Of a DNA stretch of 64,000 nt, positions 10,721 to 41,217 are shown piece after piece; position 1 is the stretch's first letter; each line of letters starts with the position of its first letter. The DNA is taken from NCBI GenBank assembly GCA_012842395.1, contig DUSX01000034.1:1-64000 (forward strand), in the 5' to 3' direction. The position numbers and the translations under genes are program-made. Under the pieces are notes generated by a model, which made no database searches, was not told the DNA's origin, and saw only the letters and a program-made list of their open reading frames with translations. The stretch comes from Bacillota bacterium (GTDB lineage Bacteria; Bacillota; SHA-98; UBA4971).

Positions 10721-10929
10721 CTAAGTATGTCGCCAAACGCTCGGGCTACTCTTCGGCGGTGGGCCTGGCTAGGGCCATCGGCCTCGCCCTCCGGGGACGG
10801 CGCGCTTGCGGTGTGCCTCGCTCGAATTCGGCGCGGGAGACATCCGAATTCTCCACGTCTCGTCGTGCAACCACCCGCAACCCTGACTCCGTCGAGAAAG
10901 GAGACGAAGACTCATGGCGCCATGCTTAG
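10721..10929 (-). repeat. MITE-like structured repeat, copy 1 (type A, reversed)
   Basis: A 209-bp element bounded by CTAAGTATGTCGCCA (10721-10735) and TGGCGCCATGCTTAG (10915-10929), which match as inverted repeats at 13 of 15 positions. Read on the minus strand it aligns over nearly its whole length with the copy at 41007, at roughly 75-80% identity by eye. It contains the same GAATTCGG...CCGAATTC hairpin. It encodes no convincing protein. It lies 540 bp upstream of livK1. Confidence 0.8.
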
Positions 10930-16645: not shown

Positions 16646-16697
16646 GCGTAGAGGTCGAAGTCGAGCAGTCATGCATATTCAGTAAAGGACGGTGGAA

Positions 16698-17948
16698 ATG
16701 GACGTGCACACGCTCGGTTACATCGATCCCGAACTTGCGGCCGCGATCAATGGTGAGCTTCAGCGTCAAGACAACACCATCGAGCTCATAGCCTCAGAGA
16801 ACATAGTGCCCCCCGCGATCCTCGAGGTCCAGGGCTCGGTCCTCACCAACAAGTATGCAGAAGGGTACCCCGGGCACCGCTACCACGGGGGCTGCAAGTA
16901 CATGGATGAGGTAGAGACGCTCGCCATCGAACGGGCAAAGCGCCTCTTCGGCGCGGAGCACGCCAACGTTCAGCCCCATTCGGGCGTCAACGCGAACCTT
17001 GCGGTCTTCGTGGCAACCCTGAAGCCGGGCGACGCGATCCTGGGGATGGATCTCAAGCAGGGTGGGCACCTATCCCACGGGAGCGCCGTGAATGTGTCTG
17101 GCAAGTACTACCGCACCTTCGCGTACGGGCTCGACCCCGAAAGCGAGCGCATCGACTATGACCAGGTCCGCGATCTCGCCATTCGTCACCGGCCTCGGCT
17201 TCTCATAGCGGGGGCGAGTGCCTATCCGAGGGTCATAGATTTCGAGCGCTTCCGCCAGATCGCCGATGAGTCAGGGAGCCTCCTCCTCGTCGACATGGCT
17301 CACATCGCGGGGCTTGTCGCGGGCGGTGTGCATCCTAGCCCCGTCCCGTACGCGGACTTCGTTACGTCCACGACCACGAAAACCATGCGAGGAGCTCGGG
17401 GCGGGTTCATTCTATGCCGTGCTGAGCACGCGAAGGCGATCGATAGCGCTATCTTCCCTGGTATTCAGGGCGGGCCGATCATGCAGAACGTAGCGGCGAA
17501 GGCTCTCACGTTCAAGCTCGCCGCCACAGCCGAATTTCGGGCGTATGCAGCCCAGATCGTGAGGAACGCCCAGGCGATGGCGGCCCGCTTCCAGGAGCGT
17601 GGGCTGAAGCTCGTCACGGACGGGACGGACAACCATTTGATGCTCCTGGACCTGCGTAACCTCGCCGGCAGGGGCGTGACAGGCCACAGCGCTGAGCAGG
17701 CGCTCGCCGAGGTGGGGATCGCCGTGAACAAGAACCTCATACCGGGCGACCCGCAGAAGCCCACCGTGACGAGCGGGGTACGTATCGGCACGGCGGCCAT
17801 AACCTCGCGGGGATTCAAAGAGGACGAGGCCGCGGTCGTGGCGGACCTCATTGCGGACATCTTGCTTAACCCGTCTTGCGCCGTGGGCGAACGCGCTCGC
17901 CGATTGGTCCAGGATCTCTGCAGGAAACATCCGATATATCAGTGCTAA
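16698..17948 (+). CDS. glyA: Serine hydroxymethyltransferase paralogue with altered active-site residues
   Basis: This 416-residue PLP enzyme aligns along its length with SHMT, which interconverts serine and glycine using tetrahydrofolate. The PLP lysine is Lys228 in [14 protein letters not shown]. In ordinary SHMT this reads TTTTHKTLRGPRGG, so the His before the Lys is Thr here and the Pro is Ala. Other usual residues also differ: PHSGVNAN instead of [19 protein letters not shown] instead of DLAHGGHLTHG, and MQNVAAKA instead of MHxxAAKA. It could be a divergent SHMT or a related aldolase for another beta-hydroxy amino acid. ATG 16698 follows AAAGGACGGTGG. The stop TAA lies inside the terminal repeat of the next element. 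Confidence 0.85.
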
Positions 17949-18140
17949 GTGGAGGTGCAAGACGCTTCAGATTAGTGGAAGGGGTTGCCGGTGATTGCGC
18001 GGCGCGTGTCAAAACCCGGCCTGTCAGGCCAGCGGCCGGGCTTTGTCAGGGCGTCCCGCTCGGGGTGCCATCCCCGAGTGCAGCATTCGCCACCCTGCAA
18101 CTGCTGGCGACGAGGCCAAAGCTAACGCACCCCCGCTTCG
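17945..18140 (+). repeat. MITE-like structured repeat, copy 2 (type B)
   Basis: A 196-bp element from CTAAGTGGAGGTGCA (17945-17959) to CGCACCCCCGCTTCG (18126-18140); the ends match as inverted repeats at 11 of 15 positions. Inside are the family core GGGTTGCCGGTG (17982), a hairpin CAAAACCCGGCC/GGCCGGGCTTTG, and a second hairpin GGCGTCCC/GGGGTGCC. The right side of the outer stem is decayed compared with the copy at 41007. Its first four bases, CTAA, contain the stop codon of glyA. Confidence 0.78.
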
Positions 18141-38171: not shown

Positions 38172-38369
38172 CTAAGTGGGGTGCAAAAGTGCTCCCAACT
38201 CTTGGGAGGGGCTGCCGCTGATTGCACGAGGGGTGTCAAAATCCGGTCACTGGCCGGAGAGACTGAATTCTGGCGAAGCGCGCCCCGCTTGGGGCGCCGT
38301 CCCCGAGTGCAACACCGGCAACCCGCCAACTACCGGAAGACGGACGAGGATTAATGCACCCTCACTTAG
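38172..38369 (+). repeat. MITE-like structured repeat, copy 3 (type B)
   Basis: A 198-bp element bounded by CTAAGTGGGGTGCA (38172-38185) and TGCACCCTCACTTAG (38355-38369), inverted repeats with a single indel. Inside, TGCAC-GA-GGGG (38223-38233) faces CCCC-GA-GTGCA (38301-38311): two stems joined by a symmetric GA/GA loop. Hairpins TCCGG/CCGGA and GCGCCCC/GGGGCGC occupy the same positions as in the other copies. It lies inside the T-box operon and ends 10 bases before the fused gene's ATG. Confidence 0.82.
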
Positions 38370-38379
38370 TCGAGGGGAT

Positions 38380-41010
38380 ATGAAAAAGATGAGGAGTCTC
38401 GATAGCACAAGGCTGGTATACCTCGGCGTCGCGCTTCTCGCCATAGCGCCGCTCGTCACGCACAACTTCTATTACCTTCGCGTGGTCGGCACAGTCGGGC
38501 TGTATCTCATCCTGGCCATCGGCCTCAATGTCGTGGCCGGGGAGGCCGGCCTTCTCGACCTCGGATATGTCGCATTCTACGGGATCGGCGCATACGTTTA
38601 CGCGCTCCTCTCGTCGCCCCACTTCGGAATCCATGCGCCCTTTCTCTTGAGCGCGGCGTGCTCGGTGGTGGCGGCGACGCTGGCGGCGCTTGCTGTGAGC
38701 CTTCCCACGCTTCACCTTCGCGGGGATTACTTGGCCATGGTGACCCTCGGATTCGGGCAGATCGTCCGGATCCTCCTCAATAACCTGGACCGACCGGTGA
38801 ACATCACAAACGGGCCCAACGGCATAGTAGGCATCGATCCCCCGAGGTTCTTCGGTTTGAGTCCAGCGTCGCTCGAGGCCTCATACTGCCTGATATGGGC
38901 ATTCGCTCTCGGCGCAGCAGTAGTGACTGGTCGCGTGCTTCGTTCAGGGATCGGACGGGCGTGGGCTGCCGTGCGTGAAGACGAGGTGGCGGCCGGATGC
39001 ATGGGCGTGGACGTGGCGCGTTACAGAGTGACAGCATTCATGTGGGGTGCGGGCCTTGCCGGGCTCGCCGGGGCGCTCTTCGCGTCGTGGCAGGGGGCGG
39101 TGTTTCCCCAGAACTTCACCATGACTGAAACTATCACGGTGTACTGCATGATAATCCTGGGCGGGCTGAGGAGCCTACCGGGGCTGGTGGCAGGCACCGC
39201 GGCGCTGGTGCTGCTTCCGGAGCTACTGCGGGCCTACAGCGTATATAGGATGCTGATCTACGGCGTCGCCCTCGTGCTTCTGGTGGTTTACCGTCCTCAG
39301 GGGCTCATCCCGGCACCGCCCACGTCCGCGGCGACCTTGGCCCTAGCAGCAGATGCAAGCCGCAAGCAGCGGCATGACGACCGCGGCCGCCTTGCCGGGC
39401 TCACCCCGGCCGACGAGGAGCCGCCGGCTCTTGAGATCCTCGACGCGAGGTGTGCCTTCGGCGGGCTCGCGGCGCTCGCGGGGGTAAACCTCACGGTGCA
39501 TCGCGGTGAGGTCGTCGGCATCATCGGACCGAACGGGGCGGGGAAGACCACCCTCTTCAATTTGATCACGGGTGTGACCAGGCCGTCCTCAGGGGACATC
39601 AGGGTGTTCGGAAAGAGCATCGTAGGGCTGCCGTCCCACAGGATATCAGCGCTCGGCGTCGCCCGCACGTTCCAGAACATCAGGCTCTTCGAGGGCCAGA
39701 GCGTGCTCGAGAACGTGCTTGCCGGGTGCCACCTGCGGGTGAGGCGCGATTTCGCAAGCGTGACCCTCCGCACGCGATCCTTCCGCACCCGTGAGGCGGC
39801 TGAGGTCCTGGCTGCCCGCGACGCACTGCAACTCGTAGGCCGTTCCCTCTCGCAGCGTGAGGCGGAGTGTGTGCGCGGCCTGGCGTACCCCGACAGGCGG
39901 CGGGTTGAGCTTGCGCGGGCGCTCGCGGCGAAGCCTCGCATCCTCCTGCTTGACGAGCCTACAGCGGGGATGACGCCAGACGAGATCGCCGAAATGGTTG
40001 ACACCATAAGGCTGCTGAGGGACCGCGGATACACCGTGGTCGTGATAGAGCACCACATGGACGTGGTCGCGGAAACGTGCGACCGCGTGATCGTCCTCGA
40101 CCACGGGGAGAAGATCGCCGAGGGCACGCCGGCTGAGGTGGCCTCCAACCCTGACGTCATGCGCGCATACCTTGGCTCGGAGCAGGCTCGCGGCGCAGGC
40201 GAGGGCGGTCGACGTGCTGAACCGCAAGCTGAACCGCGAGTGGAGGTCAAGGCAGCGCGAGCGCGAAGGCCCGAGGGCACCGCGACGTCGCGCGCGCCGC
40301 TCGACCCAGTGCTTGAAGTGAAGAACGTCCACTCGTCATACGGTGCGGTGAAGGTCCTACAGGGAGTAGATTTGTACGTTGCGAGAGGCGAGATCGTGGC
40401 ACTGCTCGGAAGCAACGCCGCAGGCAAGTCCACGCTGCTCAAGACGGTGCTCGGCCGAGTCCGTCCGTCGGAGGGCGAGATCTGGTTCCTGGGCAGGCGG
40501 ATAGACGGCCTCCCGACATCAGAGGTGGCGAGGGCGGGGATTGCGGTGGTGGCCGAGGGGCGGAGGATCTTTCCAGGCCTCTCGGTCCTCGAAAACCTCG
40601 AGCTGGGCAGCTACGTGCTCGCGAGCCGCCGGGAGGCTGCCGAGCGCATCGAACTGATCCTCGATCTCTTTCCGGTGCTCGCGGAGAGGCGCAATCAGAA
40701 GGCGGGCACGCTTTCCGGAGGCGAGCAGCAGATGCTCGCGATCTCGCGCGCTCTTGTCTCGAACCCCAAGCTCATTTGCATGGATGAACCTTCGATGGGC
40801 CTAGCTCCTGTGCTCGTCGACAAGGTGATGCAGACGATCGAAGGGATCAGACAGGCGGGAACGACCGTGCTGCTCGTGGAACAGAACGCCCGCGCCGCCC
40901 TCGCCATCGCTGACCGGGCCTACGTGCTGCGTGCCGGGAGGATCGTGGGGTCAGGAGCCGCCGAGGACTTCCTAGCCGGTGAAGCGCTCGCGCGGGCGTA
41001 CCTTGCCTAA
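38380..41010 (+). CDS. livMGF: Fused LivM-LivG-LivF: permease plus two ATPases
   Basis: 877 residues without interruption. Residues 1-310 are a LivM permease (VGTVGLYLILAIGLNVVAGEAGLLDLGYVAFYGIGAY; HLRGDYLAMVTLGFGQIVRI; AVREDEVAAGCMGVDV). After a hydrophilic linker, about 350-610 is a LivG ATPase (Walker A GPNGAGKTT, signature weakened to LAYPDRRRVELARAL, LLLDEPTAGM). After a second linker of about 40 charged residues, about 644-877 is a LivF ATPase (Walker A GSNAAGKST, LSGGEQQMLAISRAL, CMDEPSMGLAP). ATG 38380 follows GAGGGG closely; ATG 38389 is an alternative. The stop TAA lies in the terminal repeat of the next element. Confidence 0.92.
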   Translation: MKKMRSLDSTRLVYLGVALLAIAPLVTHNFYYLRVVGTVGLYLILAIGLNVVAGEAGLLDLGYVAFYGIGAYVYALLSSPHFGIHAPFLLSAACSVVAATLAALAVSLPTLHLRGDYLAMVTLGFGQIVRILLNNLDRPVNITNGPNGIVGIDPPRFFGLSPASLEASYCLIWAFALGAAVVTGRVLRSGIGRAWAAVREDEVAAGCMGVDVARYRVTAFMWGAGLAGLAGALFASWQGAVFPQNFTMTETITVYCMIILGGLRSLPGLVAGTAALVLLPELLRAYSVYRMLIYGVALVLLVVYRPQGLIPAPPTSAATLALAADASRKQRHDDRGRLAGLTPADEEPPALEILDARCAFGGLAALAGVNLTVHRGEVVGIIGPNGAGKTTLFNLITGVTRPSSGDIRVFGKSIVGLPSHRISALGVARTFQNIRLFEGQSVLENVLAGCHLRVRRDFASVTLRTRSFRTREAAEVLAARDALQLVGRSLSQREAECVRGLAYPDRRRVELARALAAKPRILLLDEPTAGMTPDEIAEMVDTIRLLRDRGYTVVVIEHHMDVVAETCDRVIVLDHGEKIAEGTPAEVASNPDVMRAYLGSEQARGAGEGGRRAEPQAEPRVEVKAARARRPEGTATSRAPLDPVLEVKNVHSSYGAVKVLQGVDLYVARGEIVALLGSNAAGKSTLLKTVLGRVRPSEGEIWFLGRRIDGLPTSEVARAGIAVVAEGRRIFPGLSVLENLELGSYVLASRREAAERIELILDLFPVLAERRNQKAGTLSGGEQQMLAISRALVSNPKLICMDEPSMGLAPVLVDKVMQTIEGIRQAGTTVLLVEQNARAALAIADRAYVLRAGRIVGSGAAEDFLAGEALARAYLA

Positions 41011-41217
41011 GTATGGCGCCATAAGTTTTTGTCTCCTTCCTTGACGGCGTTAGGGTTGCCGGTGCTTGCGCGACGGGGCGTGGAGAATTCGGCGGTCTTA
41101 AGCGCCGAATTCGAACGAGGCGCGCCGCAAGCGCGCCGTCCCCGGAGGGCAACACCGGCAACCCTCGGCAGGACCGCCCCGCCGGAAAGTAGCGCGGACT
41201 CTTGGCGACATACTTGG
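41007..41217 (+). repeat. MITE-like structured repeat, copy 4 (type A)
   Basis: A 211-bp element bounded by CTAAGTATGGCGCCA (41007-41021) and TGGCGACATACTTGG (41203-41217), 13 of 15 matching. It is the best-kept fold: AGGGTTGCCGGTG (41052-41064) pairs perfectly with CACCGGCAACCCT (41153-41165); inside are hairpins GAATTCGGCG/CGCCGAATTC and GGCGCGC/GCGCGCC. It is closely similar to copy 1 in reverse orientation. Its first bases carry the stop codon of the fused liv gene. Confidence 0.85.

Follow-up and report, generated by a model that had tools for sequence, protein, structure and literature searches.

A MITE-like repeat family of a Bacillota class with an invertible, exchangeable core: RNA-like covariation possibly produced by DNA template switching

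Related elements and the locus

The nearest known kinds of element to the repeat family described here are RUP, with its TA ends and proposed IS630 partner, and BOX, with its modularity. RUP, the repeat unit of pneumococcus, is a MITE tied to IS630-Spn1. Like our family it is short, present in more than 100 copies and bounded by TA ends and TIRs, and it adopts a stable fold when transcribed (PMC2229807, PMC3049150), as is predicted from sequence for the present elements. In contrast to RUP, the element studied here spans about 200 bp, contains a distinct core cassette subject to inversion and exchange, and has no identified partner IS; the likeness rests on features other than the TIR sequence. 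The BOX elements of streptococci (boxA, boxB and boxC) are likewise modular, with the same ends around a different or absent centre, and their transcripts are folded (PMC3049150). However, the module of our family is a palindrome that also flips, and host class, TIRs and target all differ.

A preference of IS630 for TA in CTAG is given by the title of Tenzen and Ohtsubo 1991, cited in PMC2170065, and TA target duplication is general in IS630/Tc1-mariner elements (PMC2170065). The duplicated TA target is shared with IS630 and with ISY100 (IS630/Tc1-mariner), but our element carries no transposase and no IS could be linked to its TIRs. A second point of comparison is mutational. Template switching between short inverted repeats homogenises the arms and inverts the spacer (PMC8604942). 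By introducing multibase compensatory changes it has been suggested to give rise to RNA hairpins and to preserve them, and it can look like compensatory evolution of an RNA (PMC8794818). The published examples in yeast genes have arms of about 10 bp or more and spacer inversions that changed 2–5 bp (PMC8604942). Arm homogenisation and spacer inversion are common to those repeats and ours; whereas the yeast cases described there concern single genes, we deal with a dispersed bacterial family with a structured spacer of about 90 nt. In the accessible parts of a mainly open literature, we found no prior description of core inversion or of template switching for MITEs of bacteria.

The window, by which we mean the whole 64,000-nucleotide stretch of contig DUSX01000034.1 that was analysed, holds four copies (Table 1). 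A first-pass annotation had delimited the repeat as 38208–38324. This corresponds only to the core, of about 113 nt, of a full element with CTAAGT...ACTTAG ends, and the TIRs, target duplication and cassette exchange had been overlooked. The TIR of this element, copy 3, reads CTAAGTGGGGTGCA at the left end and TGCACCCTCACTTAG at the right, and the ATG of livMGF (38380) follows 10 bp past the right end. Copies 2 and 3 do lie in sense orientation upstream of livK2 and livMGF, as annotated. Copy 3, situated between livH and livMGF, is probably part of their common mRNA. The livMGF gene (38380–41010, + strand) itself encodes a single 876-aa protein in which LivM, LivG and LivF are fused, with a BPD_transp_2 permease domain and two ABC ATPase domains.

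Two copies in the window also supply stop codons. The TAA of livMGF, at 41007–41010, comes from the first TIR of copy 4, and that of the ORF at 16692–17948, at 17945–17948, from the TIR of copy 2. Across the genome, 19 of the 67 element ends that face the 3' end of a gene provide the stop at this same offset, and one more does so at another.

Table 1. Positions of the four elements and their parts in the window; z compares the fold with dinucleotide shuffles
Feature	Positions	Strand	Remarks
Copy 1, whole element (A-type frame)	10721-10929	-	core decayed
Copy 1, core	10772-10883	-	most of closing stem lost; z -0.25
Copy 2, whole element	17945-18138	+	left end B-like, right end degenerate
Copy 2, core	17982-18095	+	z -2.43
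Copy 3, whole element (B-type frame)	38172-38369	+	198 bp; ends located, frame typed
Copy 3, core (type b)	38209-38324	+	z -4.26
Copy 3, core closing stem	38209-38220/38313-38324	+	1-nt bulge at 38221
Copy 3, core stem after bulge	38222-38227/38307-38312	+	
Copy 3, core GA/GA internal loop	38228-38229/38305-38306	+	
Copy 3, core GGGG/CCCC	38230-38233/38301-38304	+	
Copy 3, core hairpin GCGCCCC/GGGGCGC	38280-38286/38291-38297	+	
Copy 4, whole element (A-type frame)	41007-41217	+	
Copy 4, core (type a)	41053-41164	+	best fold among window copies; z -7.91

The core consists of a 12-bp closing stem (GGGTTGCCGGTG/CACCGGCAACCC), a 1-nt bulge, a second stem TTGCNN and a GA/GA internal loop, followed inwards by (C)GGGG/CCCC(G) and two hairpins. 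There are two main core types, a (GAATTCGGC.../GGCGCGC...) and b (AAAATCCGGCC.../GCGCCCC...). The pairings proposed by the first-pass annotation are present: copy 4 has all 12 closing pairs and an outer A-T (41052/41165), 13 bp in total, and copy 3 has both the inner stem TTGCAC-GA-GGGG/CCCC-GA-GTGCAA and the GCGCCCC/GGGGCGC hairpin. That each copy folds in this way holds for copies 4 and 3 and moderately for copy 2, but fails for copy 1. In copy 3 the TCCGG/CCGGA pairing turned out to be a local alternative within the family hairpin AAAATCCGGCC/GGCCGGATTTT, part of the hairpin's right arm having mutated there; the closing stem of copy 3 is Watson-Crick in 10 of 12 pairs. The stems are therefore real, strongest in copy 4 and as a whole lost in copy 1.

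Spread, insertion site and core exchange

With a covariance model derived from 49 cores (threshold E<=0.01), at least 132 core copies are detected in the genome that holds the window; the figure is a lower bound, because scoring took in only 150 of the 2339 first-look candidates. Our analyses of these own-genome copies took in 130 of the 132 matches, of which 119 lie outside predicted genes (simple codon-model gene prediction). Among 61 relatives scanned, the 14 with matches to the core model all belong to the 17 genomes analysed for the class, and the 44 from outside it gave no match. Exact-pattern matches in public genomes are, among the matches listed, to Bacillota MAGs and one Opitutia record; the latter was dismissed as chance, there being no fold surrounding the match.

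The ends of the element are well defined. C precedes TAAGT at 262 of 273 recognised ends, and of the 141 TIR pairs found 60–320 bp apart in the loci examined, 104 are separated by 190–215 bp. A-type TIR ends number 112, and all 18 listed A-type TIR-to-TIR intervals shorter than 250 bp contain the core sequence. Aligning loci across genomes revealed empty sites, which show that insertion occurs at CTAG with duplication of TA. The cleanest are L157 against L090 (CTAG when empty, CTAAGT...ACTTAG when filled) and L150 against L152, and in the remaining candidates the junction has acquired a substitution or an indel. At a further locus, one element is nested inside the core of another copy. The family has several features of a MITE, namely TIRs at both ends, target duplication, high copy number and a mainly intergenic location, as well as the TA duplication with CTAG preference of IS630/Tc1-mariner elements.

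IS630-type transposase domains (PF13358, DDE_3) matched in 6 of 21 genomes, none seen with the TIRs of the element, and the own genome yielded a single, broken DDE_3 gene with no element TIRs at its flanks. These IS630 genes were accordingly set aside as the source of the family. The PF13358 search and the TIR scans together yielded no autonomous partner sharing its ends. For this reason we describe the family as MITE-like and infer its transposase. Two further candidates were rejected. A TIR-to-TIR interval of 1.15 kb (L162) has no transposase inside, and encodes what we take, from reading it by eye, to be a lipoate ligase-like protein. Lone TIRs in genomes G002 and G005, pursued as the trail of a partner IS, turned out to mark a 124-bp relative that lacks the core, and no IS was found.

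A 124-bp repeat at L310:926-1049 and L311:893-1016 is 98% alike between its two positions, and has the shared CTAAGTGAGGGTGCA end and an unrelated interior; a 693-aa ORF at L311:1717-3798 (- strand) presumably represents an IS200/IS605 TnpA fused to TnpB, judged by eye. In L021, L022, L029, L030 and L039, several cores are flanked by GGGGAAGTTCAACAGCCTCGTGC-like ends instead of CTAAGT frames.

For every core we typed the outer half-frame to its left and the one to its right. Both were recognised in 74 of the 130 own copies, the other 56 having a half-frame that is unrecognised or of type D. The standard arrangement accounts for 63 of the 74 (51 A1-a-A2, 8 B1-b-B2, 3 C1-b-C2 and 1 B1-b-B3). In six, the core is inverted relative to its frame (5 A2-a-A1, 1 B2-b-B1), and five are chimeras of frame and core (2 B1-a-B2, 2 B1-a-A2, 1 A1-a-B2). 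Congeners add 4 B frames with an inverted core among 94 copies with both halves recognised, and in genome G013 one of three F frames carries an inverted core. Inversion thus occurred in at least three frames, although copies within one frame may share one event; six in 74 is not a rate, because the inverted copies may stem from few events. By eye, the orientation switch in the inverted and several chimeric copies is located in the 12-bp closing arms.

The same core is found in several outer frames, and different cores within one frame. A 43-nt mini-core that lacks both inner hairpins occupies B and C frames and occurs in both orientations, with 78 copies in G003, 41 in G004, 10 in G001, 3 in G002, 1 in G005 and none in the own genome. 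A coreless 77-bp frame recurs as well (L044, L075, L133, L303). The spread of both forms indicates that the inner hairpins are unnecessary for it. Two C1-b-B2 chimeras (L124, L104) represent one insertion seen in two genomes, and symmetric E frames were left unused because the E1/E2 labels are shaky (L142 reads E2-E1). Swap or inversion in place at the orthologous pairs L019/L100, L286/L128 and L130/L154 is suggestive, the flanks or ends being too diverged for proof.

Such exchange could also arise if the core were an independent mobile unit with inverted ends (GGGTTGCCGGTG...CACCGGCAACCC) that enters several MITE frames in either orientation. The occurrence of one core in A, B, C, E and F frames in both orientations, the coreless frames and the mini-core in a C frame would all suit such a unit. 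However, all exchanges share the closing arms on both sides, as expected from recombination, and no target duplication was seen flanking any core. Nor was an intact core shown outside a CTAAGT frame, 18 own copies having neither half-frame recognised. We consider an independent core very improbable.

Covariation and its possible sources

Functional RNAs are usually demonstrated through covariation. The first-pass annotation, which had noted arms that differ between copies yet still pair, read them as selection for RNA or cruciform structure and proposed covariation over many copies as the check. The aggregate tests support the covariation, but no single pair reaches significance. In alignment A6, which comprises 33 more diverged rows, 93.6% of cells are paired and 17 of 32 pairs have changed on both sides, so that pairing is indeed preserved despite altered sequence. 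Double-changed cells number 93, against 27.4±5.3 after shuffling (0 of 500 shuffles reach this value) and 3–24 with slid partners. The 49-row alignment has 84.9% of cells paired and 71 double-changed cells against 39.5 shuffled (0/500); here a +1 slide gives 80, and the double-change measure alone is therefore not clean.

Trees were made for 144 type a and 124 type b cores, 287 having been reduced to 282, of which 268 are unique; cores with N or poor similarity were excluded. Opposite-strand matches of the palindromes were ignored. Double changes from one Watson-Crick pair to another number 22 for type a and 38 for type b, compared with 6.8±2.4 and 8.2±2.6 for random same-base partners. Most double changes fall on terminal branches, in single copies. 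A home-made, tree-based simulation test of uncertain power called none of 5886 and none of 6328 pairs significant. In our judgement the aggregate signal is genuine and the per-pair test carries little weight.

One source of such a signal would be transcript selection, the core being a functional RNA (cis-regulatory or small) dispersed by a MITE. The strong covariation, a very stable fold, the intergenic position of most own copies and an excess of G-U over A-C in the closing stem all speak for it. An RNA stem tolerates G-U and not A-C, whereas for DNA both strands weigh equally. In the closing and adjoining stems, G-U exceeds A-C (93:66, p=0.039; 76:49, p=0.020), and in the closing stems of own copies the counts are 63 and 31 (p=0.0013). 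Yet in pairs with a left C the own copies show the opposite of RNA tolerance, with 35 A-C and 10 G-U. Own closing stems changed in the right arm only 326 times and in the left arm only 95 times, which makes the right arm about three times more variable. Given the reversal at left C, we read the closing-stem G-U excess as an effect of the more variable right arm. Part of this variability belongs to a subfamily with an altered right arm.

The inner hairpins show no G-U preference in type a (P2 and P3; G-U 70, A-C 81, p=0.42) or in type b (P2; 46 and 32, p=0.14). Diverged closing stems retain 364 of 396 pairs as Watson-Crick, with 13 G-U and 10 A-C. Restoration to Watson-Crick leans towards RNA, with 55 G-U against 19 A-C pairs by hand sum, a count in which one type b consensus pair is itself G-U. 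An initial G-U count (131 vs 63) was dropped, since 157 of its 210 cores came from outside the own genome, most of them from loci found by an exact left-arm pattern that hides left-arm changes.

The position of the copies relative to genes does not point to an RNA either. Tandem copies are sense in 49 cases and antisense in 37 (p=0.24), with 17 in convergent and 11 in divergent settings. An oriented regulatory role does not show in these data, and a terminator, riboswitch or other oriented cis element was rejected for want of bias. Rfam gave no match to the core even at E<=10, on which ground a known RNA family was rejected, and many copies have decayed (27 of 130 keep 7 or fewer of the 12 closing pairs). 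The RNA half of the first-pass claim is weakened by the absence of orientation bias, of a consistent G-U preference and of an Rfam match, and we regard selection on a transcript as improbable, though it may act in part of the copies.

Alternatively, the fold could be selected as DNA. Mobility, replication-linked transposition or protein binding may depend on a multibranched hairpin, single-stranded at the fork or extruded as a cruciform, and copies that keep the fold would spread. The covariation is deep and reaches across families: the closing stems TCCCGGTCGGTG/CACCGACCGGAA and GGGTGTCAGGTG/CACCTGACACCT are new in sequence yet have 11 of 12 Watson-Crick pairs. Other families of the class also contain the GA/GA internal loop, bordered there by different pairs, and the core folds as DNA on both strands. 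Against this, mini-core elements have reached their high number in G003 and the coreless frame recurs, which makes the inner hairpins dispensable, and the many compensations on terminal branches of single copies fit a mutational process. Selection on a DNA fold is thus an unlikely explanation, though one with some weight.

Neither form of selection follows from the pairing itself, since the core of a transposon-like repeat flips at the paired arms. Because the flip occurs exactly there, equivalent covariation would be expected from a mutational process in which one arm is copied from the other. Template switching is known to yield both homogenised arms and an inverted spacer; the two products are seen here at one arm pair, so that covariation need not mean RNA selection. 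Counted against this reading are the length of the spacer between the closing arms, the absence of an autonomous partner from the searches, the tests that lean towards RNA and the lack of any single significant pair. We consider it rather probable that the family is a modular, non-autonomous, IS630-type MITE-like element whose palindromes are maintained at the DNA level by template switching.

On this model, the palindromic core cassette is carried between two half-frames, which end in CTAAGT and ACTTAG and are inserted in CTAG with TA duplicated; a transposase acting in trans would spread the element. After insertion, or while an extruded hairpin is replicated, template switching would copy the arms of the closing and inner hairpins from each other. 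This could restore pairing after mutation and so produce the observed covariation. The same process may flip the core between its arms, yielding the inverted copies, and may aid the recombination of cores and half-frames that is visible in the chimeras. No RNA function would be necessary under template switching. An element within an operon, as copy 3 probably is in liv, would become part of the transcript, with a possible incidental effect on the mRNA.

Strong covariation accompanied by inversion of the core at the same arms, with little strand-specific signal, is what template switching predicts. The broader statement, that these are class-restricted MITEs with a self-repairing, invertible and exchangeable core whose RNA-like covariation stems from DNA template switching and not from RNA selection, is put forward tentatively. 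If true, it would provide a natural counter-example to covariation as proof of functional RNA. A family with at least 100 copies per genome in several genomes could be used to test how much covariation mutation alone makes. For a poorly known class of Bacillota, the analysis adds a modular MITE that inserts at CTAG and often supplies the stop codon of a gene. The palindromes may also have left a trace in sequencing: at L313:214-378 and L314:112-263, the G002 assembly has runs of N at the centres of elements, as if the palindrome had resisted assembly.
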